Source of the DNA: Oscillospiraceae bacterium
GTDB lineage: Bacteria; Bacillota; Clostridia; Oscillospirales; Oscillospiraceae
Length of the DNA: 38,387 nt
Reading direction: 5' to 3'
NCBI GenBank assembly: GCA_017429325.1
Contig: JAFRPC010000018.1
Location: 1 to 38,387 of the forward strand
Part shown: positions 167 to 38,246 of the stretch, in pieces
Position numbering within the stretch: position 1 is the stretch's first letter
Layout of the letters: the number at the start of each line of letters is the position of its first letter
Made by a program: the position numbers and the translations under genes
Notes under the pieces: generated by a model
Database searches by the model: none
What the model saw: the letters and a program-made list of their open reading frames with translations, nothing else
What the model was told of the DNA's origin: nothing

Positions 167-187
167 GGTGACTGGTGACTGGTCACT
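167..187. repeat. Heptanucleotide tandem array, unit GGTGACT
   Basis: Three consecutive 7-nt units: GGTGACT, GGTGACT, GGTCACT. This is one of about ten period-7 arrays in the window. The unit contains a stop codon when read through (TGA), and this copy is intergenic. Confidence 0.75.
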
Positions 188-207
188 CGACAAAACGGGG
201 AGCGGGC

Positions 208-231
208 GGACAAGCAATGCTTGTCCCTACA
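208..231 (-). repeat. YGTAGGG-hairpin repeat (stem ACAAGCA)
   Basis: On the minus strand this reads TGTAGGG followed by a hairpin whose arms are GGACAAGCA and TGCTTGTCC. It is one of about eleven short elements here that share the YGTAGGG lead and have different but self-complementary stems. Confidence 0.7.
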
Positions 232-232
232 T

Positions 233-274
233 ACTTATTACTTATTACTTCTTACTTATTACTTCCTACTTGTT
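233..274. repeat. Heptanucleotide tandem array, unit ACTTATT, overlapping mnmG stop
   Basis: Six units in a row: ACTTATT, ACTTATT, ACTTCTT, ACTTATT, ACTTCCT, ACTTGTT. The last two units encode, on the minus strand, the final Asn-Lys and the TAG stop of mnmG. The same unit family recurs inverted at 38213-38246. Confidence 0.8.
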
Positions 275-2257
275 CCGGTGCTGCTCCAGCCAGACCAGGA
301 GGACGGCCACGTCGGCGGGGCTGACGCCGGAGATGCGGCTTGCCTGGCCGATGCTCACGGGGCGGATGCGGGCCAGCTTCTCCCGGGCCTCCGCCTTGAG
401 GGCCGGGATGGCGGCGTAGTCGATGTCCTCCGGGATGCGCCGGTTCTCTGCCCGGCGGAACTCCTCCACCTGGCGCTCCTGCCGGGCGATGTAGCCCGCA
501 TATTTGAGCTGGATCTCCACCTGCTCCCGGACGGGCCGGGGCAGGGCCGGGCGCTGGGTATCGAAGGGGGCTGTGTCGTCATAGCTCAGCTCCGGGCGGC
601 GCACCAGGTCCGCCAGCCGGGCCGAAGTGTCCACCGGGGAGGAGGCCCGGGCCTCCAAAAAGGCGTTCAGCTCCTCGGAGGCGGCGACGCCCGTGTGCTC
701 CAGGCGCTTGATCTCCCGCTCCACGGCGGCGTATTTCTCCTCCACGGCGGCCAGCCGCTGGTCGGAGATCAGGCCGACGCGGTGGCCGATGGCGCTCAGC
801 CGCCGGTCCGCGTTGTCCTGGCGGTGGAGCAGCCGGTATTCGCTGCGGGAGGTCATGACCCGGTAGGGCTCCTCGGTGCCCTTCGTCACCAGGTCGTCAA
901 TCAGGGCGCCGATGTAGCCGTCGGAGCGCCGGAGGATCAGGGGCGCCTCCCCCTTCAGCTTCAGGGCGGCGTTGACCCCCGCCACGAAGCCCTGGACCGC
1001 GGCCTCCTCGTAGCCGGAGGAGCCGTTGAACTGGCCCGCGCCGTAGAGGCCCGGGACCTTTTTGCACTCTAAGGTGGGCAGCAGCTCCGTGGGGTCCACG
1101 CAGTCGTACTCGATGGCGTAGGCGGGCCGCATCATCTCGGCGTGCTCCAGGCCGGGGACGGAGTGGAGCATTTCCAGCTGCACGTCCTCGGGCAGGGAGG
1201 AGGAGAAGCCCTGGAGGTAGAGCTCCTCGGTGTTCAGCCCCGTGGGCTCCACAAAGAGCTGGTGCCGGGTCTTGTCGGCGAAGCGGACGATCTTGGTCTC
1301 GATGGAGGGGCAGTAGCGGGGCCCGACGCCGGTGACGGTGCCGTCGTAGAGAGGACTGCGGTGGAGGTTTTGTCTTATAATTTCGTGCGTTTTTTCGTTG
1401 GTATAGGTGAGGTAGCAGACAGCTTGGTTCCGTGGCGCTTGTCGATCCGTCCCCTCATCCGTCATCGGGCTTGCGGGGGACGCCCGATGACACCTTCCCC
1501 CCGGGGGGAAGGCTTTGGATGCGTCTCCTGTTGCCTGTTGCCCGTTGCCTGTTGCCTGTGTGGTAAACGAAAACGGCTCGATCTCCTCGTCTCCGGGCTG
1601 GAGCTCCATTTGGGTGAAGTCCACGCTGCGGGCGTTGATGCGGGGCGGGGTGCCGGTCTTGAAGCGGCGCAGGCGCAGGCCCAGGCGCCGCAGGCAGTCG
1701 GAGAGGCCCAGGGCGGCGTGCATCCCGTCGGGGCCGGAGGAGAGGACCGTCTCGCCGATGATGACGCGGCTGTCCAGGAAGGTGCCCGTCGCCAGGACGA
1801 CGGCCCGGGCCCGGTAGAAGGCCCCAAGCCGGGTGCTGAGGCCGCAGACGGCCCCGTCCTCTGTCTCGACGGAGACCACCTCGGCCTGCTTGAGGTCCAG
1901 GTTCTCCTGGAGCTCCAGGACGTGCTTCATGTATTCCTGGTAGCGCCGCCGGTCCGCCTGGGCCCGGAGGGAGTGGACCGCGGGGCCCTTGCCCCGGTTC
2001 AGCATCCGGTACTGGATGCAGCAGCGGTCCGCGGCGACGGCCATCTCCCCGCCCAGGGCGTCCAGCTCCCGGACCAGGTGGCCCTTGCCGGTGCCGCCGA
2101 TAGCGGGGTTGCAGGGCATGTTGCCCACGGCGTCTAAGTTGATAGTGAACACCGCCGTCCGCAGCCCCAGCCGCGCCGCGGCCAGCCCGGCCTCGATCCC
2201 GGCGTGCCCCGCGCCGACTACGGCAACTTCATATTCCCCAGCTTCATACTGTTTCAT
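266..2257 (-). CDS. mnmG: tRNA uridine-5-carboxymethylaminomethyl(34) synthesis enzyme MnmG, with in-frame repeat insertion
   Basis: FAD-dependent partner of MnmE that installs the carboxymethylaminomethyl group on wobble U34 of tRNAs in the cytoplasm. The 663-residue product begins with a dinucleotide-binding motif ([12 protein letters not shown], about residues 13-24), then the family block [11 protein letters not shown] (about 50-60). It carries [20 protein letters not shown] near 205-224 and the C-terminal family region ([18 protein letters not shown]). MnmG is usually about 620-630 residues. The surplus is a roughly 41-residue low-complexity segment at 233-273, between EPFSFTT and [18 protein letters not shown], encoded by repeats at 1437-1561. 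The flanking conserved blocks remain in register, so the frame is intact. The last codons and stop lie in a heptamer array. The ATG at 2257 has only a weak SD, and the gene has its own promoter. Confidence 0.95.
1437..1561 (-). repeat. Repeat-derived in-frame insertion inside mnmG
   Basis: Two modules lie in the coding direction. First is a CAACAGG heptamer array (1527-1558, about 4.5 units). Second is a palindromic module (about 1451-1516) with a perfect GGAAGG/CCTTCC-type stem and a second stem formed by 1463-1470 and 1482-1489. The same pair of modules, in the same order, orientation and reading frame, occurs in moaA (31064-31175). The encoded peptide contains KAFPPGGR and [11 protein letters not shown]. 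Confidence 0.85.
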
Positions 2258-2292
2258 AATTTCGCTGAACTCCCAAAAACTTTATCTATAGT

Positions 2293-2321
2293 ATTATAAC
2301 GGATAATCCCGGAATTGGCAA
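2293..2321 (-). promoter_or_regulatory. Sigma-A promoter of mnmG
   Basis: On the minus strand TTGCCA (2316-2321) is followed after 17 nt by TATAAT (2293-2298). Only one base differs from the consensus. The predicted transcript starts near 2286, about 30 nt ahead of the mnmG ATG. Confidence 0.75.
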
Positions 2322-4231: not shown

Positions 4232-4321
4232 ATTGAAAGTTGAAAATTGCAAATGAATGTGTTTCTCAAATTGCAATTTGAGAAACTCCGAAACTTTCAA
4301 CTTTTCACTTTCAACTTTTCA
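4232..4321. repeat. Composite palindromic element: 26-bp perfect palindrome flanked by heptamer arrays
   Basis: A perfect 26-bp palindrome at 4261-4286 (core CAAATTGCAATTTG) is flanked on the left by three units of RTTGAAA (4232-4252) and on the right by four units of CTTTCAA/CTTTTCA (4294-4321), so the whole element is an inverted repeat. A second copy at 29215-29312 is inverted relative to this one and has compensatory stem changes. It fills the gap between the pyrophosphatase and the flavoprotein and ends just before the SD of the latter. Confidence 0.85.
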
Positions 4322-4335
4322 CTCAGGAGGAACTT

Positions 4336-5280: not shown

Positions 5281-7890
5281 CTGAATTTCATCTGGATTTT
5301 AGCTGCGACAGCCCTGCTGGGCGGCGGGCTCGGGGCCGCCCTGTCCCACATCCCCGGCAGGCGCGGCGGGACGCTGCTGAGCGGCCTGCTGCTGGCGCCT
5401 GTGAGCGCGGCCCTCTTCGCCGGGGGCCTCTGCCTGCTGAGCAGAAGCACAGAGCCCGCCGTGGTTCTGGACAAAGTGTTCCCGGATCGGCTCTCCAGGC
5501 TGGCAGGCTGCGGCCTGCTGCTGCTTTTGGCCTGCGGCCTGGGCCTTTTCTTCGGCGCGATCCGGGCCAAGGGCCTGCGGCGCTATTTCCGGGCCGTGCA
5601 GGACAGCCGCCTGCACAAGGGCTTGGGCCTGGCCTTGCTGGGCGGCGGCGCCGCGCTGGCTCTGGGCTGTGCCCTGCTGGCCGGGGACCCGCCTCCCGCG
5701 CCGATCCGGCTGACGGAGGTCTGCTGCGCCAACTACCAGCGGGCCGATCCCGATACCGGGAAATACAGCGACTACGTGGAGCTCTGCAACACCTCTGACG
5801 AGACCGTAAACATCGGCGGGTACTTCCTCTCCGACAACGGCAAGAAGCGGGGCCGCTTCCGCCTGCCCGAGCTGAGCCTGGAGCCCGGCGCCTGTGTGCT
5901 GCTTTGGGCCGACGGCACCGGGACCTCGGGCCAGTGGGGCGGCGAGGCCATTCACCTGAACTTCTCCCTGAAGGAAGGGGAAACGCTCTGGTTCAGTTCT
6001 CCCTTTGGGGTCCTGCTGGAGCGGGTGACGATCCCGGCGCCCCACAAGGACGTTTCCATGAGCCTGGTGGACGGGGAGTGGATCCTGGCCTGGGGAACAC
6101 CGGGCCGGTCCAATGAAACTGCCAAGCCCTATACGCCGCCCAGCCTGGACCCTCCGGTCTTCAGCCTGGCGGGAGGCTTCTATGACGAACCCCAGACCCT
6201 GACCCTCACCGCGGCCCCCGGCTGCGAGATCCACTATACCCTGAACGCCACGCTCCCCTCGGAGAGCAGCCCCCTCTATGAGGGCCCGCTGACCCTGATC
6301 GACTGCTCGGACCAGCCAAACCGGGTCTGGAACCAGGTCAACACGACGCCGGACCGCTCAGCCGTCGTCACCGAGCCCGTGGACAAGGGCATGGTGGTCC
6401 GGGCGGCCGCCTACGGGCCGGATGGCGCCTACAGCGAGACCGTGACAGCGGTCTACTTCATCGGCGAAACCTTTGCCAAATACCGGGACCGCTCGGTGCT
6501 GAGCCTGGTGGTGAACCCGGGCGACCTCTTCGGCAAATACGGCATCATGGTGACGGGTCCGGCGTATGACGAATGGCTGGAGGGGGGCAAGGTGGGCGAC
6601 ACGCCCGACATGAACCTCTACCGCCACGGTCGTGGCTGGGAGCGGGACACACAGATGAGCCTGTGGGACGAGGACGGCACGCTGGTGCTGGACACTGCCT
6701 GCGGGATCCGGCTTCAGGGAAATGCCGCCCGAGCCCAGCGCTACAAGCGCTTTGCCCTCTATTCCCGCCCCCTCTACAGCGGGAGCAGCGTCTTTTCCGT
6801 CCAGCTCTTCTCCGGGGTTGACAGTCACTCGGTCTCCACCCGGGAGGACGCCTACGATTTCGTGGTGCATCAGCTCCTCGAGGACCGGGACCTGGGGACC
6901 CTGGACGCCCTGCCGACGCAGCTCTTCCTGAATGGGGAATTCTACTACAGCTCCTACCTCCGGGAGCGCTATGACAAGCAGTGGTTCCAGTCCCATTACG
7001 GGGTGAAGGAAAAAGAACTCGTGCTCATCAGCGACAACGAGCTGGACTACGGCACCGAGGCGGACTATGCGGACTACGAGGCGCTGATGGACTATATCCA
7101 GACCCACGACTGCGCCAACCCCGCCGTCTGGGCGGAGATCCAGCGGCAAATCGACGTGCAGAGCCTGCTGGATTACCTGGCCGCGAATTTCTACTGCAAC
7201 AACATCGACTGGCGCTTCCAGAAGAACTACAAACTCTGGCGGGTCCGTTCCGCCCGGGGCGACGGTGTGCTGGACGGCCGCTGGCGCTGGCTGGCCTACG
7301 ACATGGACGCTGTGGGCTGGGCCTCCATGCGGATTGAGGAGCCTCTGGCCTCCATCGACCCCTTCCACGCCCTGCTGCCCTGGCTCTCCGGCCTGGACAA
7401 CCAGACCATCTATTTAGACATGCCCCTCTTCAGCGATTTGCTGAAAAACCCGGAGTTCAAGACCCGCTTCATCCAGACCTATCTGGACCTGATGAACGTC
7501 AACTTCGACCTCGACTACGCCATGCCGGTGCTGGAGGAATTCGGGCTGACGGAGCACTGGCTCTGGACCGATTTTCTGACGGAGCGGCCGCCTTATGCCC
7601 TGGAGAATCTGCGGCAGGCTATGGAGCTGGAGGGCGAGGCCTGTACCCTCACGCTGCGCCTCTCCGACGCGGCGGGCGGCAGCGTCCGCCTGAATACCAC
7701 GCAGCCCGACTGCTCCGGCGAGGCCTGGAGCGGGACCTGGCTCACGGGCGTACCGCTGACCCTGAGCGCGGAAGCGGCTCCCGGCTGGCGCTTTGTGGGC
7801 TGGCGCGGCGACGCGGAAGGCGCGGAGAACGAGCTTCTCCTCACCCCTACGGGCGATCTGGCTGTGACGGCTGTCTTTGAGAAACGATGA
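5281..7890 (+). CDS. Membrane protein with lamin-tail and CotH kinase domains, copy 1
   Basis: About 869 residues. Four hydrophobic helices occupy roughly residues 1-140. They are followed by a lamin-tail domain (LTEVCCANYQR, SDYVELCNTSDE, YFLSDNGKKRGRF), a chitobiase C-terminal-like beta domain (GGFYDEPQTLTLT, EIHYTLN) and a CotH-type kinase region (SVLSLVV, IRLQGNAAR, FLNGEFYYSSYLRERYDKQW, RWRWLAYDMD). At the C-terminus is an InlB/Listeria-type repeat (GWRFVGWRGDAEG). CotH proteins are atypical kinases, first known as spore-coat protein kinases; the extracytoplasmic domains suggest action at the envelope. The strong SD GGGGAGGTGA is placed for a CTG start at 5281, and the next copy has the same arrangement. 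In-frame TTG 5263 and GTG 5272 are alternatives without a well-spaced SD. It is a close paralogue of the next gene. Confidence 0.85.
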   Translation: MNFIWILAATALLGGGLGAALSHIPGRRGGTLLSGLLLAPVSAALFAGGLCLLSRSTEPAVVLDKVFPDRLSRLAGCGLLLLLACGLGLFFGAIRAKGLRRYFRAVQDSRLHKGLGLALLGGGAALALGCALLAGDPPPAPIRLTEVCCANYQRADPDTGKYSDYVELCNTSDETVNIGGYFLSDNGKKRGRFRLPELSLEPGACVLLWADGTGTSGQWGGEAIHLNFSLKEGETLWFSSPFGVLLERVTIPAPHKDVSMSLVDGEWILAWGTPGRSNETAKPYTPPSLDPPVFSLAGGFYDEPQTLTLTAAPGCEIHYTLNATLPSESSPLYEGPLTLIDCSDQPNRVWNQVNTTPDRSAVVTEPVDKGMVVRAAAYGPDGAYSETVTAVYFIGETFAKYRDRSVLSLVVNPGDLFGKYGIMVTGPAYDEWLEGGKVGDTPDMNLYRHGRGWERDTQMSLWDEDGTLVLDTACGIRLQGNAARAQRYKRFALYSRPLYSGSSVFSVQLFSGVDSHSVSTREDAYDFVVHQLLEDRDLGTLDALPTQLFLNGEFYYSSYLRERYDKQWFQSHYGVKEKELVLISDNELDYGTEADYADYEALMDYIQTHDCANPAVWAEIQRQIDVQSLLDYLAANFYCNNIDWRFQKNYKLWRVRSARGDGVLDGRWRWLAYDMDAVGWASMRIEEPLASIDPFHALLPWLSGLDNQTIYLDMPLFSDLLKNPEFKTRFIQTYLDLMNVNFDLDYAMPVLEEFGLTEHWLWTDFLTERPPYALENLRQAMELEGEACTLTLRLSDAAGGSVRLNTTQPDCSGEAWSGTWLTGVPLTLSAEAAPGWRFVGWRGDAEGAENELLLTPTGDLAVTAVFEKR

Positions 7891-7906
7891 AGGGGAGGTG
7901 GGGACG

Positions 7907-10513
7907 CTGAACTACCTCTGTCTTCTGGCCGCTGCGGCATTGCTGGCCGGCGGGATGGGGGCCGCCCTGTCCCACATCCCCGGCAAGGGCGGCAGGACCC
8001 TGCTGTGGGGCCTGCTGCTGGCGCCCCTCAGCGCGGCCCTCTTCGCCGGAGCGCTCTGCCTCCGGGCGGGGACCGCAGAGCCCGCCGCGGTGCTGGACCG
8101 CTTCTTTCCGGACCGGCTCTCCAAGCTGACGGGCTGCGGTCTGCTGCTGCTTTTGGGCTGCGGCCTGGGCCTTCTCTTCGGTGCGCTTCGGGCCAAGGGC
8201 CTGCGGCGCTGGTTCCGCGCCGCACAGCAAAGCCGCCTGCACAAGGTCCTGGTCCCGGTCCTGCTGGCGGTCGGCGCCGCCCTGGTCGCAGGCTGCGTCC
8301 TGCTGGCGGGGGAACCGGCTCCCACCCCGGTCCGGCTCACGGAGCTTGGCTGTGCCAACTTTCAGCGGGCCGACCCCGACACCGGGGAATTCAGCGACTA
8401 CATTGAGCTTTGCAATACCTCTGACGAGACGGTAGACCTTGCGGGCTACTTTCTCTCCGACAACGGCAAAAAACGAGGCCGCTTCCGCCTGCCGGAATGG
8501 AAGCTGGAGCCCGGCGCCTGTGTGCTGCTCTGGGCTGACGGGACCGGGACCTCGGGCCAGCGGGGCGGCAGCGAGGCCATCCATCTGAACTTCTCGCTCA
8601 AAGCCGGAGAAACGCTCTGGTTCAGCTCTCCCCACGGGGTCCTGCTGGACAAGGTGACAGTCCCGGAGCCTCGGAAGAACGTCTCCATGAGCCTGGTGGA
8701 TGGGGAGTGGACCCTGACCATGGGCACACCGGGCCGCTCCAACGAGGACGCCGTTCTCTATACGCCGCCCAGCCTGGAGCCTCCCACCCTCAGCCTGGCG
8801 GCGGGCTTCTACGACGAGCCCCAGACCCTGACCCTCACCGCGGCCTCCGGCTGCGAGATCCGCTATACCCTGGACGGCTCCGCCCCCATGGAAAAGAGCC
8901 CTCTCTACGAAGGACCTCTGACGCTGACGGACTGCTCAGACCAGCCCAACCGGGTCTGGAGCCAGCCCAACACCATGCCGGACCGCTCCGCCGTCCTTCT
9001 CGAGCCGGTGGACAAGGGGACGGTGCTGCGGGCCGCGGCCTTCGGCCCGGACGGAGCCTACAGCGACCCCGTTACCGCGGTCTACTTCATCGGCCCCGAA
9101 TTTGCCCAATACCGGGACCGGGCTGTCCTGAGCCTGGTGGTGAGCCCGGCGGACCTCTTTGGCAAGTACGGCATCATGGTCACGGGACCGGCCTATGACG
9201 AGTGGCTGGCCCAGGGGGGCGTGGGACAGGCTCCCACCATGAACCTCTATCGCCGTGGGCGGAGCTGGGAGCGGGACGCGGTGCTGACCCTCTGGGACGA
9301 GGACGGCGCTCTGGTGCTGGACGCCCCCTGCGGCGCCCGCCTCCAGGGCGACAGCAGCCGGGTCCGGGTGATGAAGCGCTTTTCCCTCTATGCCCGCCCG
9401 GTGTACGGCGGCAGCAGCCTCTTCCCTGTCCCGGTCTTCGGGGATCAGCTCTCCCACAGCCTCTACACCCGGGCCAACTACAACGACGTGATGGCCCAGT
9501 CCCTCTGCGCGGACCTGGGTCTGGGCGGCCAGGCGGCCCGCTCCGTGGTGATGTTCCTCAACGCGGAGCTCTACGGTGAGACCTTCCTCCGGGAGCGCTA
9601 TGACAAGCGCTGGTTCCTTGACCGCTTCGGCGCGGAGGAGGACGAGCTTGTGGTCATCGCGGACAGCGAGCTGGACTGCGGGACCGCGGAGGACTACGCG
9701 GCCTTCCAGGCGCTGATGGACTATATCCAAAGCCACGACTGCGCCGACCCCGCCGTCTGGGCGGAGATCCGGCGGCAGGTGGACGTGGAGAACTACGCCG
9801 CCTATATCGCCGCCAACCTCTATCTGAACAACACCGACTGGAGCGTCACCAAGAACTATCGCCTCTGGCGGGTCCGCACGCCCCAGAACGAGGGCGTGCT
9901 GGACGGGCGCTGGCGCTGGCTGCTCTTCGATATGGACGCCTGCTACTGGACCCGTCCGGCCTTCGGGGACGCGCCCCGGGCCTCCTATGACCTCTTCCAT
10001 TATCAGGCCCCCGAGACGGAGGGGAGCTTTTTGGAGCTGCCCATGTTCCGGGAGCTGCTGCAAAATCCGGAGTTCCGGATGCTCTTCGCCCGGACCTGGC
10101 TCCGGCTGATGAACGTGGAGTTCTCCTACGAGCGGGCCCTGCCCCTGTTAGAGGCGCTGGGACTGACAGAGGACCCCTTCTGGCCGGAGTTCCTGCGCAC
10201 GCGACCGGACTACGCCGTGGACCAGCTTATCGAAGCGCTGGACCTGCCCGGCGAAGCCTGCGGCCTGCGCCTGGGTGTCCCCGACCCGGCGGGGGGCAGC
10301 CTCCGCCTCTGCGGCGGCACGCCGGAGCTCACCGGCGGGACCTGGACCGGGACCTGGGTGACGGGCGTTCCCCTGACCCTGAGCGCCGAAGCGGCCCCCG
10401 GCTGGCGCTTCGCGGGCTGGCGCGGCAGCGCGGAGGGCGAAAAAGCCACCCTCACGCTGACGCCCACGGGCGATACGGAGCTGACCGCCGTATTTGAAAA
10501 AATCGGTTCCTGA
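7907..10513 (+). CDS. Membrane protein with lamin-tail and CotH kinase domains, copy 2
   Basis: About 868 residues, collinear with and highly similar to the preceding protein: four N-terminal membrane helices, lamin-tail domain, chitobiase C-terminal-like domain, CotH kinase region (VLSLVVSPADLFGKYGIMVTG, ARLQGDSSR, RWRWLLFDMD) and a C-terminal GWRFAGWRGSAEG repeat. The two share architecture throughout but differ in the region after ARLQG/IRLQG and in the helical C-terminal third, as expected for a diverged tandem duplication. The SD AAGGGGAGGTG overlaps the stop of copy 1 and points to CTG at 7907. The in-frame TTG at 7877 would overlap copy 1 and has no SD. VTC and DUF4956 genes follow directly, an arrangement commonly seen with CotH genes in Clostridia. 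Confidence 0.85.
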   Translation: MNYLCLLAAAALLAGGMGAALSHIPGKGGRTLLWGLLLAPLSAALFAGALCLRAGTAEPAAVLDRFFPDRLSKLTGCGLLLLLGCGLGLLFGALRAKGLRRWFRAAQQSRLHKVLVPVLLAVGAALVAGCVLLAGEPAPTPVRLTELGCANFQRADPDTGEFSDYIELCNTSDETVDLAGYFLSDNGKKRGRFRLPEWKLEPGACVLLWADGTGTSGQRGGSEAIHLNFSLKAGETLWFSSPHGVLLDKVTVPEPRKNVSMSLVDGEWTLTMGTPGRSNEDAVLYTPPSLEPPTLSLAAGFYDEPQTLTLTAASGCEIRYTLDGSAPMEKSPLYEGPLTLTDCSDQPNRVWSQPNTMPDRSAVLLEPVDKGTVLRAAAFGPDGAYSDPVTAVYFIGPEFAQYRDRAVLSLVVSPADLFGKYGIMVTGPAYDEWLAQGGVGQAPTMNLYRRGRSWERDAVLTLWDEDGALVLDAPCGARLQGDSSRVRVMKRFSLYARPVYGGSSLFPVPVFGDQLSHSLYTRANYNDVMAQSLCADLGLGGQAARSVVMFLNAELYGETFLRERYDKRWFLDRFGAEEDELVVIADSELDCGTAEDYAAFQALMDYIQSHDCADPAVWAEIRRQVDVENYAAYIAANLYLNNTDWSVTKNYRLWRVRTPQNEGVLDGRWRWLLFDMDACYWTRPAFGDAPRASYDLFHYQAPETEGSFLELPMFRELLQNPEFRMLFARTWLRLMNVEFSYERALPLLEALGLTEDPFWPEFLRTRPDYAVDQLIEALDLPGEACGLRLGVPDPAGGSLRLCGGTPELTGGTWTGTWVTGVPLTLSAEAAPGWRFAGWRGSAEGEKATLTLTPTGDTELTAVFEKIGS

Positions 10514-16822: not shown

Positions 16823-16906
16823 GGAGCCGCCTCCTTTCAAAATTCCATATTATTATAACACAGTTTCCGCGGAAAAGCTATCCCCTGCCGAAGGATTTTC
16901 GCGGAC

Positions 16907-16935
16907 TTGACAGATTTTTAAGAAAATAGTATAAT
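16907..16935 (+). promoter_or_regulatory. Consensus sigma-A promoter of the LRR protein gene
   Basis: TTGACA (16907-16912), 17-nt spacer, TATAAT (16930-16935): a perfect consensus match. The start site near 16942 rules out the ATG at 16947 as a normally initiated start and supports 16983. Confidence 0.85.
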
Positions 16936-16982
16936 AATAAGAACGAATGAAACCAAACAAGATCACGGAACGGAGCGAAGCC

Positions 16983-21700: not shown

Positions 21701-24700
21701 ACATCAGTGGAGGAGGTGTAGTCATGTGTGCCGAGCCACAGACCCGTGGAGGCGTCGTATGTACAAGGCACATAGGTATTATCCTCTCTGGAATTTTGTG
21801 TTATAACATACACTTCAGTGATTATCGTATCGTCGATCACAGCGTTCGTACCGCCGATAAACTCGACCAGGAAGGTAAAGGTTGGACAACTTGGGTTATA
21901 AACATAATACGGCGAAACATTTTGAGGGTTCAGAAAATCAAAGACAGTCTGATACTCGCTGGATGTTGAAGATGCGGTACTTGTTGAATTGATCATCGTG
22001 ACCTTCGACACTTCAATACAGTCGCCAACGTATAACAGAGACTGCGTATCAGTCACGATCACGCCGTCGATCTTATCATTCTCGATCTTTGCGTTCACTT
22101 CATGGAGCGAGTAGTTATACGGATCCACGAGGTCAAACAGCAAGCCCCAGCTTCCGACGGCGTTGGACCGCGTCGTCCCGACCTCCATGCCGTTGTCATA
22201 CACTGTGATCGTACTGTTTGCGAGCGTCGTACCTGTGGCGGTGATACGGAACCGGCTTGTCTCTTCGGGAATGACGAGCTTTCCTGCTTCAGCGGTGAAG
22301 ATCGCCGAGCCAATGGGCTGAATAATGTCGGTTTCATCATTCCGGAACGACAAATAAGCATTGAACTCCTTCCGCCCGACTGTCGCTGCAACGGCATAAA
22401 AACGAATGATACCGGTGCGGTTGTTTGTGAAAACGGACAACAGATTGCCGTCCAGGGAATAGGATAAGCCCGCTCCGTCCAGTGTCAGGCTTCCGTTCGC
22501 GATCAATACGCCGTCCGGCAGCTCGATCGTCACGCGTTCGTTTTTTGCGGAGTATTTGTCATCGATCTGATAAGCACAGCGCATCATGACGTATTTGCCG
22601 ATGCTGGCAGCAGATGCATTTGAAGTAAAGGAGGTCGAATCGGATACCGTATAATACAGGCGGCTTTCATCAAGATCCGGAACAGTCAGATCGCCGATGT
22701 CCGTAATGACCCCGTTTGTGATCGTCACATACTTCACAAGATAGTCAGTGCCGGCGTCAAGCCCGAATGCCGCAAGCTTATCCATGCTGACAGCACTGCG
22801 CAGCAGATCTGTTTTTTCAATGAAAACCAGAGAGTAAGATCCGGAACGAAGGGGAGCGCTCTGGTAATTGGATGCAGCAGTTGCGGAGCGGACAAACAGA
22901 TCGTTTTCATCAAAGATCATGACCGTACACGGTGCGCTCCCGCTCATGGCGCCGACGGAGAACCAGCCGTTCTCAAGAAACTCGATGTCGCATTCTCCCA
23001 TTTTCTGTTCATCCAGGACGACAGTTGCCGGCGCGGCAGTCATTTGTCCATCCTCGTCCGCCGCGTGGATCAACAGGACGTCATTCGCTGAAACCGCATC
23101 ATCTTCGAGGATCAAATATGGATACTGCACGGTAAAACCGGTGATCGTTGTGTCTCGCGTTTGATCGTAAACGCTGAACGAAATGCCGTTTGCAGACTGG
23201 AGCTGGCTGCGCAAGCCATCCTGCCCGGCAGTTGTCGCGCCGGTCTTGTACAGATTCAGCGTGATCTTGTTCTCGGGAAGCTTGGTCAGAGTCAGGTCTC
23301 CGAGCTGGATTGAGCTTTCCGTGCCCTCTCCTAAGATCACTGTCTTTGTGCGGGTGTAGTAACCGTTTGCGGATATCTCCGCGACGGTCGGAACGAAAGA
23401 GATGGTTTCGAAAAACGTGCCGTCTTCCCGGACCTCCGCCGTAATATCTCGTTCGTACTTCCCATTAAAGCATTGCTTCAGCGTAACGCTTGCGTTGCTG
23501 AGCGGGACGCCATCCAAATCAACGACTCGACCGGAGATCTCAACGGAACCGAGCGGTTCCAGCCTGACGGTGATCTGATCGCTGTCGTTTGTGCATACGG
23601 CGTCCGCCCGGTAGGGCTGCCTGTATTGATAGCTTAGCGCTTCTCCAAGCAGGATCTCATATTCGTACAGGCTATCCTCTTGATAACCGATCAGGACGTT
23701 CCCGTGACCGATCACGGTATCTGAACCATTTTCATACCAGTTGACGGTAAATCCGCTTGTCAGAGTGAGGTCAAACTCATTCGTGACAATGAGAGTAAGA
23801 CAATTGCCGACTGGAGCATACGACTCGATCAGAGAGATCAGTATGGGATACGGATAATCATATCCGATCTCACCCATCATCCAAACGGACTCGAAATCAA
23901 ACCCGGTATAGGTCTCCTGAACTTTGAGTTCATCCTCTGTTTTTGATTCTGCACGCTGGACCAATACCTCACCTTTGTGTATGCTGATGCTTCCAATTGC
24001 TTCCGGCGCAGTGGTGTCCAGGAAATAGCAATCTTCTACGAGCACATCAACATAATTATACACACTGGAGTATGTGATGATGCCTCCAATAAGTCCACCG
24101 GTATTAGCGCTGCTGCTGAGAACGTGACCGACATTGTAGCATGAGGCCATTGCAAACATCAGATCTCTGTCCTCAAAGTGTAATAAGGAGTCGTTGTGAC
24201 AAGTATAGGAATAGCCAAGGATACCTCCGACCATATCCGATCCAATGACCAGGCCGTTGTTGTAGGAATTCGTTACCAGGCCGCTGTTCGTATGGCCCGC
24301 GATCCCGCCAATGTATTCTGTTCCGCTGATTGTACCGGAATTATAGCAATTATCGATTATCCCTCCATCGCCTGCAATCCCGCCAACGTAGGAATTGCCG
24401 CTTACACGTCCCAGATTGTAGCAATTGATGACCGTGCCACTGGATTCGGATAAACAGATAATTCCACCGGCGGCCTCACCTTTGACAAATCCTAGATTAT
24501 AGCAGTTCTCAATGAGAAGCGCGTCATTTGCAACGATACCACCGGCTGTTTCGCCAATGATTGTACAGGAATTAAAACAATTCTGTATTTTACTGTCGTA
24601 TCCGTAAGCGATTAATCCTGCAGTATAAGTAGAAGGAGAAACAACATAGCCGTCAGCTACACCAAGATTCTTCAATGTTCCACCCCATAAACATGTAAAG

Positions 24701-25137
24701 AAAGCTGCGCCTCCATTGACCCATTGTGAAATATACATTCCGCTTATAATATGTCCGTTTCCGTCAAAGCACAGACCGTAGTTGGATATGTTATTATTGA
24801 TCGGCGTCCATTCATAAGGCGTCTGACCTGCTGCAACTCCGGAGATATACCCATCTTCATCATACTCGAAGACATCGGGCCCATTCATCACAATGTCATT
24901 CATCAGTTTGACATAGGAGTTCTGAAAGATGGGACTGGCTGTGTTGATCGTGTCGCGAAACGCCTCAAGTTCTGCGAGCGTGTAGATCAAATACGGATCC
25001 TCCTCTGTACCGGACCCGCTAAGCTGGATGCCGTCGGCGAGCGTCGTTTCGTGATGGGCAGAGAACACCGGCTGGGGAAGGAGCGAGAAAAGCATTAACA
25101 GGGCCAAAAGTTTCGCGATTGTTCGTTTCGTTTTCAT
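18781..25137 (-). CDS. Giant secreted surface protein with GLUG-type repeats and three SLH domains
   Basis: 2118 residues. An N-terminal signal peptide (KRTIAKLLALLMLFSLLPQPVFSA) leads to a region of GLUG-type repeats (about 120-340; NCYNLGRVSGNSYVGGIAG and relatives), predicted as a beta-helix. A carboxypeptidase-regulatory-like module follows (VEISGRVVDLDGVPLSNASVTL). Long stretches match no family I recognise, including a helical part near 1300-1500. Towards the end are a bacterial Ig-like domain and a chitobiase C-terminal-like domain (GAEIYYTLDGTCPC). Three SLH repeats (about 1938-2118) each contain a TCTRGQVV block and FVDVKPGKYY-type motifs, which bind pyruvylated secondary cell-wall polymer. 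GC is visibly lower than in neighbouring genes, suggesting transfer or different selection. AAAAGGAG precedes the ATG at 25137. A role in adhesion or the S-layer is inferred. Confidence 0.88.
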   Translation of the reverse strand: MKTKRTIAKLLALLMLFSLLPQPVFSAHHETTLADGIQLSGSGTEEDPYLIYTLAELEAFRDTINTASPIFQNSYVKLMNDIVMNGPDVFEYDEDGYISGVAAGQTPYEWTPINNNISNYGLCFDGNGHIISGMYISQWVNGGAAFFTCLWGGTLKNLGVADGYVVSPSTYTAGLIAYGYDSKIQNCFNSCTIIGETAGGIVANDALLIENCYNLGFVKGEAAGGIICLSESSGTVINCYNLGRVSGNSYVGGIAGDGGIIDNCYNSGTISGTEYIGGIAGHTNSGLVTNSYNNGLVIGSDMVGGILGYSYTCHNDSLLHFEDRDLMFAMASCYNVGHVLSSSANTGGLIGGIITYSSVYNYVDVLVEDCYFLDTTAPEAIGSISIHKGEVLVQRAESKTEDELKVQETYTGFDFESVWMMGEIGYDYPYPILISLIESYAPVGNCLTLIVTNEFDLTLTSGFTVNWYENGSDTVIGHGNVLIGYQEDSLYEYEILLGEALSYQYRQPYRADAVCTNDSDQITVRLEPLGSVEISGRVVDLDGVPLSNASVTLKQCFNGKYERDITAEVREDGTFFETISFVPTVAEISANGYYTRTKTVILGEGTESSIQLGDLTLTKLPENKITLNLYKTGATTAGQDGLRSQLQSANGISFSVYDQTRDTTITGFTVQYPYLILEDDAVSANDVLLIHAADEDGQMTAAPATVVLDEQKMGECDIEFLENGWFSVGAMSGSAPCTVMIFDENDLFVRSATAASNYQSAPLRSGSYSLVFIEKTDLLRSAVSMDKLAAFGLDAGTDYLVKYVTITNGVITDIGDLTVPDLDESRLYYTVSDSTSFTSNASAASIGKYVMMRCAYQIDDKYSAKNERVTIELPDGVLIANGSLTLDGAGLSYSLDGNLLSVFTNNRTGIIRFYAVAATVGRKEFNAYLSFRNDETDIIQPIGSAIFTAEAGKLVIPEETSRFRITATGTTLANSTITVYDNGMEVGTTRSNAVGSWGLLFDLVDPYNYSLHEVNAKIENDKIDGVIVTDTQSLLYVGDCIEVSKVTMINSTSTASSTSSEYQTVFDFLNPQNVSPYYVYNPSCPTFTFLVEFIGGTNAVIDDTIITEVYVITQNSREDNTYVPCTYDASTGLWLGTHDYTSSTDVPVKVNVHFTISLDYEDEVSLNEAMLSQEIEALYEGFLEAEVDLTTLYSVTSVSRDNETTVEVTSKDSDGPSAKYKITTLPPTQVPPEEIPEIRDQLRNEGYAEFSDPNSGSIFTRTTEDGSLDIRTVPDPPDLSTPVTTTHERIDYQIDLDPASGANIISAWDMFGGGDVVPASNALIYWLDNNTTILDNYMTTPRDFTKYFGLIGNIYGYAVNSRKYSLLHKYISRLYSDYVDLVGNSYGLLYRKCTDGGYALTPEQMTDFRSRLTDLTDEYKEKHNEIQFGLNLVHGTMTLSAGIYLALPWETHKVESMVEAYLLSKGGAFGYAGIRVDTVNLHRNMLKKLSALYNEILQAYRCPLERNPALFETPGSKMGHSSGLTATVHIDPSGYVYEAVPSNRVEGVKAEAYVYDYDYDEFGMPSETKSEIFWNAEAYDQVNPLYTDVNGMYAWDVPIGQWLVRFSKDGYYDTDSRGLPFNDEDGYLPVPPPQTEVNVGIISKATPTVAGISTFSNEIRIEFSQYMQIDTVAPDTVTVKAGGSTVSGTLIPANAEYDYEHVNQYASVFLFLPSTELSGSISVTVNGAVNYAGTAMTRSVTQFGTAEVKPEALIAADDIHVTYRSGALLEITATPEGSCKNAELEIVSYSPSIVGIANEGVTTDENGHANIMVLGLLPGQGEIAVSVKGTDLKKLVTVTISGVENTNDRCEKVTASIPSGSTVVAGTMVELTTSTEGAEIYYTLDGTCPCILESPSRILYTGPIQITADTFIIAYAVKEGLKDSYTAGFSYFQAKNYNPFEDVLEGKFYYEPVLWAYYHNPFPITSGIDDTHFGPKNTCTRGQVVRFLWNAVGQPEPTITECPFVDVKPGKYYYDAVLWALETGVTSGKDETHFAPNETCTRGQVVRFLWNAIGQPEPVSTECPFVDVKPGKYYFDAMLWALENGITSGIDASRFGPNETCTRGQVVTFLYYTFVNEE

Positions 25138-28545: not shown

Positions 28546-29226
28546 ATGGACCTGTTTCCCCTCTGGAATTCCCTGCGGATCGCCTTTCTCTCGGCGGTGC
28601 TCGTCTTTTTCCTGGGCGTTGCCGCCGCCTACTACGCCTCCAGAGCCCCCCGGCTTGTGAAAGGGGGCCTGGACGTGGTGCTGACGCTTCCGCTGGTCCT
28701 GCCGCCCACGGTGGTGGGCTATCTGCTGATCCTGCTCCTGGGGCCCAACCGGGTCCTGGGCAGCTTTGCGCTGCGGGAATTTGGCCTGAAGCTGCTGATG
28801 CAGTGGTGGTCTGCGGTGTTTGCGGTGTCGGTGGTCATCTTTCCGCTGATGTACCGCACGGCCCGCGGGGCCTTTGAGGCCTTTGACGAGGACCTGGCGG
28901 CGGTGGGCCGCACCCTGGGCCTGTCCAACGCCTATATCTTCTGGCGCATCCGCCTTCCGGCCTGCCGCCAGGGCATTTTGGCGGGGGTGGTCCTGGCCTT
29001 TGCCCGGGCCCTGGGCGAGTACGGCGCCACCTCCATGATCGTGGGCTTCATCCCCGGCAAGACCGCCACCGTGGCGACCCAGGTGGCCTTTCTCTGGCAG
29101 AACCAGGGGAACACCGACGCCGGACGGCGGGCCCTGCTCTTTTGGATCTGTATCAATGTTGCGATCTCCGCCATCGTTTTGATTACAGTCAATTTGTTGG
29201 AGCGGCGCAGAAGAGTTGAAAGTTGA
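28546..29226 (+). CDS. modB: Molybdate ABC transporter permease
   Basis: 226-residue inner-membrane permease of ModABC with five to six helices. The coupling region for the ATPase is the EAA-type loop AVGRTLGLSNAYIFWRIRLPACRQGILAGVVLAFARALGEYGA (about 120-160). PLVLPPTVVGYLLI near the N-terminus is typical of ModB. It starts 4 nt after modA, an operon arrangement. The last three codons (Val-Glu-Ser) and the TGA stop are encoded by the first heptamer units (GTTGAAA) of the repeat that follows, so the native C-terminus has probably been replaced. Confidence 0.93.
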   Translation: MDLFPLWNSLRIAFLSAVLVFFLGVAAAYYASRAPRLVKGGLDVVLTLPLVLPPTVVGYLLILLLGPNRVLGSFALREFGLKLLMQWWSAVFAVSVVIFPLMYRTARGAFEAFDEDLAAVGRTLGLSNAYIFWRIRLPACRQGILAGVVLAFARALGEYGATSMIVGFIPGKTATVATQVAFLWQNQGNTDAGRRALLFWICINVAISAIVLITVNLLERRRRVES

Positions 29227-29312
29227 AAATTGAAAGTTGAAAGTTATCGGAGTTTTGCAAATTGCAATTTGCAAAACACATTCATTTTCAATTTTCAACT
29301 TTCAACTTTCAA
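29215..29312. repeat. Second copy of the composite palindromic element, with heptamer arrays
   Basis: Four units of RTTGAAA (29215-29242), a perfect 26-bp palindrome (29252-29277; half-site GTTTTGCAAATTG) and four units of YTTTCAA (29285-29312). Compared with 4261-4286, palindrome positions 5-6 change from CT to TG and positions 21-22 change from AG to CA, so pairing is kept. Flanking words show this copy is inverted relative to the first. It sits between modB and modC and supplies the modB stop. Confidence 0.85.
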
Positions 29313-29331
29313 TTCAGCGAAAGGAGGCCCC

Positions 29332-30378: not shown

Positions 30379-31496
30379 GGGACAGCTTTAGCCGCAGCAT
30401 CGACTACCTCCGCCTGTCTGTGACGGAGCTCTGCGACCTGCGCTGCGCCTACTGTATGCCCCCGGAGGGGGTCTGCAAGCGGGAGCAACGGGACATCTGC
30501 TCTCTGGAGGAGCTGGAGGAGCTGGCCGCCGCCTGCGTGGCGCTGGGCGTCAAAAAAATCCGGCTCACCGGCGGCGAGCCTCTGGTCCGCCGGGGCATCC
30601 TCCGGCTGGTGGAGAGGCTGGCGGCCCTGAAGGCCCTGGGCCTGGAGGAGCTCACCATGACCACCAACGGCCAGCGCCTGGCCGAATTCGCCGTGCCTCT
30701 GCGGGAAGCCGGGCTGGACCGGCTGAACGTCAGTCTCGACACCCTGCGTCCGGACCGCTACCGGAGCCTCACCGGGGGCGGGGAGCTGGACCGGGTTTTG
30801 GCGGGTCTGGAGGCCGCCGAGGCGGCGGGCTTTGGTCGTACCAGCCTCAACGCCGTCCTTCTGAAGGGCGTCAACGACGACGAGCTGGCGGCCTTGGCCG
30901 ACCTGGCGAGGACGCGGCCCCTCAGCGTCCGCTTCATTGAGCTCATGCCCCTGGGACCCGCGGCGGAGCGCTATGCCGAGACCTTCCTCCCCGCCGCCGC
31001 GGTGCTGGAGGCCGTGCCAGAGTTAGTCAGAATGCAAAATACAAAATGCAGAATGCGAAATGAGGCAACAGGCAACAGGCAACAGGCAACAGTGGACGGA
31101 GGAACGGGAAAAGCCTTCCCCCTTGGGGGAAGGTGGCATCCGGCGTCCCCCGCAAGCCGGATGACGGATGAGGGGTCGTCCGATGATGGAACACGGAACC
31201 TGGATTCAAGCGGCGTCGCCTGCCTCTACAGCGCGCCGGGCTGGGCGGGGACCGTGGGGCTGATCCCCCCCATGAGCGCCTGCTTCTGCGCCGACTGCCG
31301 CCGCATCCGCATCACCGCCGACGGGAAGCTCAAGCCCTGCCTGCATTCGGCGGAGGAATTCCCCCTCCGGGGCCTCCACGGCGAGGAATTGAAAGCGGCT
31401 GTGAGCGCAGCGATCCAGAAAAAGCCGGAGCGCCATCATCTGACCGATTCCGCACTCAGCGAGAGCGCACGCCCCATGAGCGAGATCGGGGGATAA
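30375..31496 (+). CDS. moaA: GTP 3',8-cyclase MoaA with in-frame repeat insertion
   Basis: Radical-SAM enzyme that converts GTP to 3',8-cyclo-7,8-dihydro-GTP, the first step of molybdopterin synthesis. 373 residues against about 320-340 normally. The SAM-binding cluster motif CxxxCxxC is at Cys20, Cys24, Cys27 (CDLRCAYC), followed by LTGGEPLVRRG and NVSLDTL. The C-terminal substrate cluster uses Cys305, Cys308 and Cys322 (FCADCRRIRITADGKLKPC), and the catalytic Gly-Gly tail is kept (EIGG). Residues about 219-277 are an inserted segment made of two heptamer arrays and a palindromic module, placed between the barrel and the C-terminal cluster region without losing frame. Translation is probably coupled to modC through ATGA. 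Confidence 0.93.
   Translation: MRDSFSRSIDYLRLSVTELCDLRCAYCMPPEGVCKREQRDICSLEELEELAAACVALGVKKIRLTGGEPLVRRGILRLVERLAALKALGLEELTMTTNGQRLAEFAVPLREAGLDRLNVSLDTLRPDRYRSLTGGGELDRVLAGLEAAEAAGFGRTSLNAVLLKGVNDDELAALADLARTRPLSVRFIELMPLGPAAERYAETFLPAAAVLEAVPELVRMQNTKCRMRNEATGNRQQATVDGGTGKAFPLGGRWHPASPASRMTDEGSSDDGTRNLDSSGVACLYSAPGWAGTVGLIPPMSACFCADCRRIRITADGKLKPCLHSAEEFPLRGLHGEELKAAVSAAIQKKPERHHLTDSALSESARPMSEIGG
31029..31205 (+). repeat. Repeat-derived in-frame insertion inside moaA
   Basis: Consecutive modules: five RAATGCA heptamers (31030-31064), four CAACAGG heptamers (31064-31092) and a palindromic module (about 31111-31175) with stem 31137-31144/31156-31163. The latter two modules match those in mnmG in order, orientation and frame. 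One stem pair differs (C-G here, G-C in mnmG), keeping base pairing. Confidence 0.85.
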
Positions 31497-31520: not shown

Positions 31521-31997
31521 ATGGACTTTACCCATCTCAACGACGAAGGCCGCGCCGTTATGGTGGACGTGACGGATAAGGCCGTCACGGACCGGACGGC
31601 CCGGGCGGAGGTCCGGGTGCGCTGCGCCCCGGAGACCCTCGAGGCTATCCGCTCCGGCGGCATCAAAAAGGGCGACGTGCTGGCCGTGGCCCAGGTGGCG
31701 GGCATCCAGGCCGCCAAGCGGACCTGGGAGCTGATCCCCCTCTGCCACCCCCTCCCGCTCACCGGGGTGGACCTGCGCTTCGCCCTGGAGGAGACCGCCG
31801 TCCATATCACCGCAGAAGTCCGCTGCACCGGGCAGACCGGGGTGGAGATGGAGGCCCTGACCGCCGCCTCCGTCGCCGCCCTGACGGTCTACGACATGTG
31901 CAAAGCCTTGCAGAAGGACATGGAGATTACCGGCCTGCGGCTGCTGGAAAAGACCGGCGGGAAATCCGGGAAGTGGTCAGTGCTCAGTGGTCAGTGA
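31521..31997 (+). CDS. moaC: Cyclic pyranopterin monophosphate synthase
   Basis: 158-residue enzyme that converts the MoaA product into cyclic pyranopterin monophosphate. Family blocks: [18 protein letters not shown] near the start, [16 protein letters not shown], the active-site [14 protein letters not shown] (about 70-83), [13 protein letters not shown] and [15 protein letters not shown], then [10 protein letters not shown]. It usually acts as a hexamer in the cytoplasm. The ATG at 31521 is preceded by GGAGG; ATG 31509 has no SD. The tail KWSVLSGQ and the stop are encoded by an AGTGGTC heptamer array, replacing the short natural C-terminus. Confidence 0.94.
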
Positions 31998-35097: not shown

Positions 35098-35112
35098 GCG
35101 CTGATCGAAGGG

Positions 35113-36612: not shown

Positions 36613-36634
36613 AGTGTGCCTCCTCTTTGTTTTC

Positions 36635-36684
36635 TGTAGGGACGGCACTCTGCCGTCCGCGGACGAGCAATGCTCGTCCCTACA
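36635..36684. repeat. Pair of opposed YGTAGGG hairpins between citXG and the hydrogenase gene
   Basis: Forward TGTAGGG element 36635-36658 (stem GGACGGC) and reverse element 36661-36684 (stem GGACGAGCA/TGCTCGTCC) meet tail to tail. The second overlaps the last codons of citXG. Confidence 0.75.
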
Positions 36685-38200
36685 TTGTGTCATGCGACAG
36701 AGATTCCAAAAACAGGGTGACAGCCAGCAGGTCCGCGCAGCCGCCGGGGGAGAGATTCCGCTCGATGAACTGCCGGTCCAGCTCCGCGATCTCCTGTAGG
36801 GACGGCACTCTGCCGTCCGTTCCTCTGTCATTGCGAGGCCCGGAGGGCCGTGGTAATCCGTTTCCCTCGTCCCCTGTTGCCTGTTGCCTGTTGCCTGTTG
36901 CCTCGGGCGGGCGGCACCCCTCCACCGGCCTTGAGGCCGGTCCCCCTCCCCTGCAAGCAGGGGAGGTTATGAGCGCCCCTGCTGCGGCTTTCGCCCAGGC
37001 CGCCCCCTCGGGGCCGCCCCGGTGGAGAAGGTTGGTGTCCTCCACGCGGGCGATCAGGTGCAGCAGGGTCACGGCGGCGGCGTGGTTTCGGTCCAGGCCC
37101 TCGGCCAGGAGCTTTTGGAAGACGGGCAGGGAGACTTCCCGCACAGCGGGCAGGCCGTCGGCCACCTCGCCCCGGATGCCCCGGGTCCCGTACTGCTTGT
37201 AAAGCCTCTCCCCTGCTGTGTTCCAGCGGGCGGCGGGCAACTCCTTCTCCAGGGTCTCCCGGGTCATGGCGGCAGCCTCGTTCAAAATGGCGTCGGCGTC
37301 GGGGAAGCCCTCCTCCGCCGTCCAGAGCCGCCCGATGGCCCCGCAGAGCACGCCCAGGGTGAAGATGGCCCCCTTGTGGGTATTGACACCCCCCGTGGCG
37401 GCCAGCATGTCCCGCTCGGCCTGCTTGCCGAGGGGGCGGAGCTTCGCAAAAGTCTCAGCGGGAGAAACGGGCCGCTGGACGGTGTTTGGGACCACGTTTC
37501 GGTCAAAGTGGCCGATCTCGACGCAGCCGCGCCAATAGTCTGATAGGGCGGCGGCGGAGGCCTGGAAGGTGAAGTAGTCCATATCCCGGTGGGAGCCGTT
37601 GTTGGCCCGGTCCACCAGACCGGGCTTCGGCGTCACAGCCACCTCGTCCAGTAAGGCCCTGGTCGCCAATGCGCTGCTCTGATCCTGTGCTGCGGACCAG
37701 AGCCCGGCTGTCAACAGATTGGCTGTGCATAATTTCAGCTCCGCCACGGAATGCAGCCGCCGGGAGGCGCAGTCCCGACCGGGCTTGCCGCAGACGAGAC
37801 ATGGCCGTTCCGCGCCGCGTTCCAGTTTTTTCCCGTCCAGGCCGATGACGTCCATGTCGAAGAGGCGACCCATTGGGTTCGATTCCTCGATCTCCACACA
37901 GAGGGCCTTGACGGCCTCCGCGGGGGCCTCCACTGCAAAATAGCCCTCGTCCCCGGTGGGGAGGGAGCGGGAATGCTCCTTCCGCACGGGCATCCGGTTC
38001 TGGACAAAGCCCAGCCGAAGCTGCTCCATCCCCCAGAGGAAGGCGCGGTGGGACAGGGCCGTGACCTTGACCGGCCCGGCCATATTCATGGTGAAGGACA
38101 CCACCGGGACCTTATAAACGTCCAGCAGAGCGTTCTGAATCTCCACCCGCTCCTCGCGGACGAGCAGGATTTCTGATAAGGTAATTTCTTGTTCGATCAT
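36680..38200 (-). CDS. CitX-CitG fusion: citrate lyase prosthetic-group transferase and triphosphoribosyl-dephospho-CoA synthase, with repeat insertion
   Basis: 506 residues in two domains. CitX-like (about 1-165): VYKVPVVSFTMNMAGPVK, RKEHSRSLPTGDEGYFAVE, GRLFDMDVIGLDG and the cysteine pair CLVCGKPGRDC. CitG-like (about 175-506): ALLDEVAVTPKPGLVDRANNGSHRDMD, GGVNTHKGAIFTLGVLCGAIG, RVEDTNLLHRGG, and the C-terminal ELDRQFIERNLSPGGCADLLA. The first attaches and the second makes the 2'-(5''-phosphoribosyl)-3'-dephospho-CoA group of the acyl carrier protein. Residues about 411-468 are an inserted repeat segment between AAAGAL and LQEIAELDRQF. Fused CitXG proteins are known. No citrate lyase subunits are in the window. 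GAGGAA lies ahead of the ATG at 38200. Confidence 0.9.
   Translation of the reverse strand: MIEQEITLSEILLVREERVEIQNALLDVYKVPVVSFTMNMAGPVKVTALSHRAFLWGMEQLRLGFVQNRMPVRKEHSRSLPTGDEGYFAVEAPAEAVKALCVEIEESNPMGRLFDMDVIGLDGKKLERGAERPCLVCGKPGRDCASRRLHSVAELKLCTANLLTAGLWSAAQDQSSALATRALLDEVAVTPKPGLVDRANNGSHRDMDYFTFQASAAALSDYWRGCVEIGHFDRNVVPNTVQRPVSPAETFAKLRPLGKQAERDMLAATGGVNTHKGAIFTLGVLCGAIGRLWTAEEGFPDADAILNEAAAMTRETLEKELPAARWNTAGERLYKQYGTRGIRGEVADGLPAVREVSLPVFQKLLAEGLDRNHAAAVTLLHLIARVEDTNLLHRGGPEGAAWAKAAAGALITSPACRGGGPASRPVEGCRPPEATGNRQQATGDEGNGLPRPSGPRNDRGTDGRVPSLQEIAELDRQFIERNLSPGGCADLLAVTLFLESLSHDTM
36795..36970 (-). repeat. Composite repeat insertion inside the citXG gene
   Basis: In gene order: a palindrome with CCTCCCCTGC and GCAGGGGAGG arms (about 36950-36968) plus an ACCGGCCT/AGGCCGGT hairpin; a CAACAGG heptamer array (36873-36903, about 4.4 units); a module GGATTACCACG...CGCAATGACA (about 36825-36860); and a YGTAGGG hairpin (36795-36818). 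About 176 nt are read in frame as about 58 residues. Confidence 0.85.
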
Positions 38201-38212
38201 AGGTTCCTCGCA

Positions 38213-38246
38213 AAGTAAGAAGTAAGCGGTAAGAAGTAATAAGTCA
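38213..38246. repeat. Heptanucleotide tandem array, unit AAGTAAG
   Basis: Units AAGTAAG, AAGTAAG, CGGTAAG, AAGTAAT and a partial AAGTCA: the inverted counterpart of the ACTTATT array at 233-274. It lies just upstream of the citXG start. Confidence 0.75.

Follow-up and report, generated by a model that had tools for sequence, protein, structure and literature searches.

The tandem arrays of seven-base units in contig JAFRPC010000018.1 of an Oscillospiraceae bacterium (assembly GCA_017429325.1) probably belong to one family of drifting repeats that has spread within a mosaic of short non-coding mobile repeats. The contig was analysed over its whole length of 38,387 nt, called the window below; it is contig 23 of a genome of 2.03 Mb (68 contigs, 72.8% complete), and positions given without a locus name are window positions. 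Relatedness of the units, copying of arrays as blocks, differences in unit number, filled and empty orthologous sites, association with hairpins and preservation of reading frames were all observed. At several separate sites in conserved Clostridia enzymes non-coding repeats have been turned into protein-coding sequence.

An earlier note on this DNA had listed arrays with a constant period of 7, and Tandem Repeats Finder (TRF) returned a period-7 row at each position listed. Arrays were scored by their lag-7 score, with a strict cut at ≥14 and a looser cut at ≥10. Six window arrays lie above the strict cut (starts 232, 1527, 29214, 29284, 31063 and 36873), and six named ones, which are short or imperfect, lie below it (starts 165, 4232, 4292, 31031, 31972 and 38213). 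TRF also revealed a period-7 array absent from the earlier list (29255-29275). The own-genome sample, made up of the window and 20 further stretches of its genome (366,965 bp including 5,749 masked N), gave at the strict cut 35 arrays of period 7, four of period 6, two of period 9, one of period 10 and none of periods 5, 8, 11 and 13; a third-order Markov control of this sample contained no period-7 array at the same cut. A sample of the window's genus (61 stretches from 20 genomes, 1,002,357 bp) yielded 108 arrays of period 7, compared with 0, 5, 2, 3, 2, 0 and 0 of periods 5, 6, 8, 9, 10, 11 and 13, respectively. Multiples of 7 were raised as well (31 at 14, 22 at 21, 12 at 28), and at the looser cut 157 arrays of period 7 were found besides 53 of period 6, 28 of period 9 and six of period 8. 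The sharp peak with many units that the earlier note had set as its check was therefore present in the genus sample (108 vs 0-5), and the broad distribution of periods named as its refutation was not seen there.

Both samples were non-random. Many genus stretches came from contigs with known CAACAGG arrays, mnmG or Y1 matches, and nine of the 20 own-genome stretches were on contigs listed beforehand, so that array densities are biased. The peak itself is not created by this choice, since 69 of the 108 genus arrays carry units other than CAACAGG, the commonest unit. A single unit accounts for 24 of the 35 own-genome arrays, in a sample that favoured contigs already known to hold it. Array density was 0 in several small samples and ≥20 per 100 kb in genomes G005, G014, G002 and G008, the last value resting on 7.5 kb only. 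Related Clostridia from other genera (75 loci, 1.16 Mb) show a weak peak, with 14 arrays of period 7, nine of period 10 and eight each of periods 11 and 16. CAACAGG is a unit of local occurrence in this genus: three exact units are present in 10 of 23 genus genomes, and among 300 genomes sampled from the family in two, the window's own included. Most arrays are intergenic: a coding-potential test, which may miss genes with long inserts or arrays close to gene ends, placed 13 of 100 evaluable arrays within genes, nine being CAACAGG arrays in forward orientation, and did not class the other 87 as intragenic.

According to the earlier note the units share little sequence. When rotations and strands are merged, the 108 genus arrays reduce to 34 consensus units joined by 33 single-base links, with 30 units in one component. 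Shuffling the bases within units 300 times gave 12.9 ± 3.0 links (maximum 22) and a largest component of 6 on average (maximum 13). Drift in phase from unit to unit is seen within a 111-bp array of locus L181 (17578-17688), which passes from AATAGTG through AATAGGG, ATCAGGG, GTCAGGG, GCTAGGG and GGTAGGG to AATAGAG and AATAGGG, with some short runs of a single unit. Over 39 arrays equal units are adjacent 86 times, compared with 73.2 ± 4.5 times in shuffled order (87 at the top of 500 shuffles). This single mutational network and the drift within the L181 array contradict the description of the units as unrelated.

Arrays were also copied as blocks, as an identical imperfect 30-mer with the variant unit in third place occurs exactly at 12 places in the own-genome sample, with three in a local tandem of L033 and two in L046; control 30-mers with the variant unit second or fourth occur at 0 and four places, respectively. 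Most CAACAGG arrays start in the same phase, AGGCAAC. The constancy of 7 with changing units is best read as a period inherited by copying the neighbouring unit while the sequence drifts. Of the common 7-nt mechanism suggested earlier, the sharp peak with many units stands; the need for a machine reading a 7-nt spacing, which would follow from unrelated units, is not supported. Larger tandem repeats of ~120-144 bp, each with one heptamer array, are present at L037 41-328 and L033 8601-8927; they give the impression that composite modules were amplified in their entirety.

Short dispersed repeats form a mosaic to which the arrays belong, and next to the arrays are hairpins resembling those of repetitive extragenic palindromic (REP) elements. 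Non-coding copies of GTAGGG(A/G)CGG are situated within 90 nt of an array in 21 of 38 cases, where 3.9 are expected from non-coding DNA; if copies are spread over all DNA, 21 of 39 compare with 0.8 expected. Non-coding copies of CCTTCCCCC are near an array in six of 17 cases (1.8 expected). A hairpin of at least 6 bp follows GTAG in 4.9% of cases (tetranucleotide mean 1.1%), a rate exceeded by TAGG alone, which shares three overlapping bases with GTAG. The stems of the GTAG hairpins have many different sequences with complementarity kept. A second, AT-rich class, the GTTGAAA type, consists of an inverted pair of arrays around a central hairpin, and its copies (4232-4323, 29214-29314, L033, L035 and L040) have hairpin arms that differ yet still pair. 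Inverted array pairs were considered as general element ends and rejected, since 24 direct and 10 inverted pairs lie within 250 bp of each other. Variants of a further module, GGATTCTTCGCTGYGCTCAGAATGAC, which we take to be widespread among unrelated bacteria, are found on either strand in the L052/L135 mnmG insert, after L172 2041 and after L165 19203. Its core has no copy in the own-genome sample, though it is present in inserts and gaps of relatives.

Insertion into a conserved gene is most evident in mnmG. The window MnmG has 37 residues where 2zxh, the best-matching solved MnmG, has six, and the module at 1448-1516 of this insert (CCTTCCCCC) matches other loci. This site was scorable in 19 of the 23 genus genomes, being filled in eight and empty in 11; the other four (L137, L151-L153) have no match to one or both anchors. 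The empty sites have 84 nt between anchors. The filled ones have 18-186 extra nt, which are stop-free multiples of three in all eight, and heptamer arrays are present in six: two have CAACAGG and four have AATGCAG or AATGCAA, with AGGGATC in addition in one of these four. Unit gain or loss at orthologous loci, which the earlier note proposed to look for, is apparent, as unit numbers differ between orthologues, e.g. about one AGGGATC-type unit in G008 and four in G017. Trees of both mnmG parts group the filled G017 with the empty G003 as sisters at 100% bootstrap. On either tree the well-supported branches require two or more changes at the site, and parsimony gives three and four. Named relatives found through mnmG belong for the most part to uncultured Oscillospiraceae or Clostridia, and the titles of several of the nearest ones point to ruminant guts.

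Three further genes have shared insertion sites. In an HI0933-type flavoprotein site 1 is filled in seven of 20 scorable loci, and a second site is filled in other genomes; the site of an RluD-like pseudouridine synthase is filled in nine of 21 and that of moaA in at least six of 13. These counts omit L208, L226-L228, L252, L275 and L276 (misaligned, paralogous, fragmentary or duplicate) and loci with a best match below 120 bits. The inserts are mosaics that align in one frame, some with and others without arrays. Several further genes have arrays inside a Pfam domain or between two of them: metG, mutL, a Toprim-DUF4093 protein, an nrdD-glutaredoxin frame, a TerB_C protein (three different arrays), a phage terminase and a portal protein. 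Arrays probably lie inside citXG and a DUF2344 protein as well. Other long frames around arrays gave no Pfam match. Judged from the alignments, the insertion sites appear to be surface loops.

In L167 (G005:C119) a phage terminase frame (7437-9095) and a P22-like portal frame (15946-17913) each contain an in-frame CAACAGG array, so that prophage genes are also targets. The mutL linker of L171 (7188-9482), from the array-rich genome G021, has two CAACAGG arrays, and GGGAATC arrays lie in Pfam-matched frames of G005 (RluD-like, L165 18167-18197; TerB_C, L168 12450-12490).

CAACAGG and AATGCAA, read from the unit, are free of stops in all frames of both strands. As 7 is coprime to 3, each strand gives one seven-residue cycle in any frame (QQATGNR for CAACAGG), and a stop-free array with the same peptide cycle in any entry frame is easily tolerated. 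In genes the coding strand reads CAACAGG and never CCTGTTG in 14 of 14 arrays. Twelve of these are clear, with the array within or between matched domains or at an aligned site (mnmG of G000 and G021, moaA, metG, nrdD-glutaredoxin, Toprim-DUF4093, RluD-like, HI0933-type flavoprotein, TerB_C, terminase, portal, mutL), and two are probable (citXG, DUF2344 protein). Arrays before the first domain were excluded (forward in cca and GH53, in opposite sense in coaE and a peptidase S11 gene). Inside genes a coarse gene caller gave eight CAACAGG arrays in the same and one in the opposite sense, and in this sole opposite case (L165 18066) it had picked the antisense of the RluD-like gene.

Selection for the peptide is not proven by this orientation, as intergenic CAACAGG arrays between co-directional genes have the same tendency (10:2); tolerance at transcript and at peptide level is therefore inseparable here. 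The purine-rich strand of all arrays matches co-directional neighbours in 33 cases and opposes them in 12. At convergent or divergent sites it follows the majority strand in five cases and opposes it in four, with nine lacking a majority. A replication-strand bias was rejected on these numbers, and transcription is the better correlate. Where neighbouring genes converge or diverge according to the coarse gene calls, each of the 11 CAACAGG arrays is on the + strand of its stretch.

For a single family of drifting repeats the following course may be proposed. Each new unit would be copied from its neighbour by slippage or unequal exchange in 7-nt steps, by which the period would be inherited and the sequence would drift. 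Dispersal would make use of the hairpin modules, for which template switching or a Y1/IS200-type transposase acting in trans may be responsible. Copies that break proteins would be removed, and others would survive neutrally where proteins and operon spacers tolerate them.

Several observations weigh against this explanation. Common origin alone does not tell why the period is 7 rather than 8. The network test does not separate descent from a shared sequence preference, as one strand has five or more purines among its seven bases in 27 of the 34 units (~15 expected). The mnmG inserts of G013 and G020 are 18 nt without an array, and several inserts at the flavoprotein, RluD-like and moaA sites have none either, so the role of the arrays is as much that of passenger or neighbour as that of mover. 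Resolution of the mnmG trees is poor past a few forks. A Y1_Tnp match is present in 12 of the 23 genus genomes, above the cut-off in 11 and below it in the window's own incomplete genome, and no transposase was linked to arrays in this search. A Y1 transposase as the mover was set aside, since its presence does not track array density in these small samples; in G010 and G011, for instance, matches are accompanied by few arrays. Furthermore, a general, unit-independent preference for 7 may exist.

The last point is central to the rival explanation to which we give a small but real chance, that arrays are born independently by replication slippage, in which any sequence may duplicate a 7-nt step because the polymerase holds DNA of that length, and are mutually unrelated. 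The sharp peak at 7 and the local duplication of units agree with it, and so do viral contigs, in which exact four-unit arrays of unrelated heptamers occur (CAACAGG in eight contigs, reversed control seven; AGGGATC seven, reversed control three; AATGCAA one, its control none) and two octamer controls gave none. Heptamers of several units without octamers suggest a general taste for 7, from a test of eight patterns only in which one control, CTAGGGA, itself occurs as a unit in L033. A universal preference for the particular units was dismissed, CAACAGG being about as common as its reversed control. Independent births are at odds with units that are related rather than random, with the prevalence of one unit in the own-genome sample (which favoured contigs holding it), with the identical imperfect 30-mers and the prevailing start phase, and with the recurrence of arrays and hairpin modules at the same loops.

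A further possibility, which we regard as doubtful, is that in this genus modules of both kinds, hairpins and heptamers, are inserted by an active process again and again at the same turns of housekeeping proteins and reshuffled there, as a natural loop-diversifying system. If so, a shared pool of non-coding DNA would constantly serve to rebuild these loops, and frame-independent 7-nt units would be ideal cargo.

It is improbable that the arrays are functional sites at 7-nt spacing, e.g. for an RNA-binding protein on mRNA, or structured operon spacers. Arrays directly before gene starts (4232-4323, 29214-29314, 38213-38244), the purine-rich strand following co-directional neighbours and the compensated hairpin arms of the GTTGAAA elements are in line with such a function. 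Nevertheless, the same sites are empty in close relatives in four genes, arrays also lie within enzymes and phage terminase and portal genes, and ordinary tolerance in transcripts could explain the purine bias. An assembly or binning artefact of metagenome-assembled genomes is very improbable: the five nearest named relatives (L051-L055) are labelled metagenome assemblies and repeats are hard to assemble, but related inserts recur across separate assemblies, all eight mnmG inserts are stop-free multiples of three and those of three further genes align in one frame.

The arrays and the repeats beside them were compared with known systems. Heptameric short tandemly repeated repetitive (STRR) sequences and long simple sequence repeats are known from Nostoc/Calothrix, Xanthomonas, Beggiatoaceae and Microcystis (PMC4692102, PMC4679880). 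Work cited there finds heptanucleotide repeats in excess across many bacteria, with polymerase contact length and slippage proposed as the cause of the 7 nt, and the binding of cold-shock proteins to heptamer repeats is discussed (PMC4679880). The comparison with cyanobacterial STRR made in the earlier note is apt: in both cases period 7, imperfect units, several heptamers and many loci per genome, a mostly intergenic location and some inverted pairs are found, and the abundant repeat of Xanthomonas (PMC4692102) is the same heptamer as GGGAATC of G005. In contrast to those repeats of other phyla, the present units form one network, adjoin GTAG hairpins, were copied as blocks and lie in frame within conserved genes whose orthologous sites are empty.

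In-frame insertion into unrelated, conserved protein genes and absence from orthologues is shared with the Rickettsia palindromic elements (PMC10969869), which measure ~150 bp (18-186 nt here). Those are single conserved palindromic elements with a conserved peptide, whereas here mosaics of interchangeable modules are present, often with heptamer arrays, and the modules at one loop differ by species. PARCELs (PMC2996958) likewise are translated palindromic repeats of sporadic spread, but are tandem repeats of 25 residues; here the period is 7 nt and the hosts are largely housekeeping enzymes.

REP elements have a GTAG foot, a term not found in the REPIN paper. A GTAG foot followed by a hairpin with varied complementary stems is present here in the hairpin modules only, not in the arrays. 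REP and REPIN sequences (PMC3116915) are short dispersed hairpins as well and go with RAYT transposases; no RAYT was identified here, and the part of that paper compared does not mention heptamer arrays, which here adjoin the hairpins.

Heptamer arrays in other phyla and in-frame repeats in Rickettsia are thus already known; for heptamer arrays or such in-frame mosaics in Clostridia no account was found in the open-licence literature, a search that leaves most subscription journals uncovered, and the combination was not found there either. Related species with filled and empty sites, scorable units, hairpins and frame allow birth, drift, block copying and loss to be separated.

Features of the window with their coordinates and supporting evidence
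Feature	Position	Strand	Remarks
Period-7 array, unit GGTGACT	165..187		intergenic, downstream of mnmG; TRF, 3.3 copies; under strict cut
GTAG-footed hairpin, stem GGACAAGC/GCTTGTCC	208..230	-	adjoins 232..271 array; sequence, hairpin census
Period-7 array, unit ACTTATT and variants	232..271		mnmG 3' end; TRF, lag score 21
In-frame mnmG insert, approximate limits	1440..1560	-	CAACAGG array and palindromic CCTTCCCCC module; orthologue alignment
CAACAGG array within mnmG	1527..1559	-	TRF; above strict cut
Palindromic element	4232..4323		GTTGAAA-type array, central hairpin, complementary array; TRF rows 4232-4254 and 4292-4318; directly precedes start (4336) of thioredoxin-reductase-like gene
Palindromic element between modB and modC	29214..29314		GTTGAAA array, TTTTGCAAATTGCAATTTGCAAAA hairpin, complementary array; TRF rows 29214-29245 and 29284-29314; DNA fold -35.7 kcal/mol
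In-frame moaA insert, approximate limits	31026..31204	+	AATGCAA-type array, CAACAGG array and CCTTCCCCC module
AATGCAA-type array in moaA	31031..31062	+	TRF; under strict cut
CAACAGG array in moaA	31063..31092	+	immediately after AATGCAA-type array; TRF; above strict cut
AGTGGTC array over moaC 3' end	31972..31996	+	moaC frame stops at 31997; TRF; under strict cut
GTAG-footed hairpin, stem GGACGGCA/TGCCGTCC	36796..36819	+	near citXG array; hairpin census
CAACAGG array, C-terminal part of citXG frame	36873..36903	-	TRF; above strict cut
AAGTAAG array immediately upstream of citXG	38213..38244		TRF; under strict cut

Rfam gave no match to the window at gathering thresholds. The modB frame ends within an array (29214-29226) and the moaC frame at the edge of one (31972-31997), so that arrays form the ends of these proteins. 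Apart from the heptamers, the window contains a 183-bp direct repeat (18872-19227, ~81% matching) inside a frame of 2118 aa (18781-25137).

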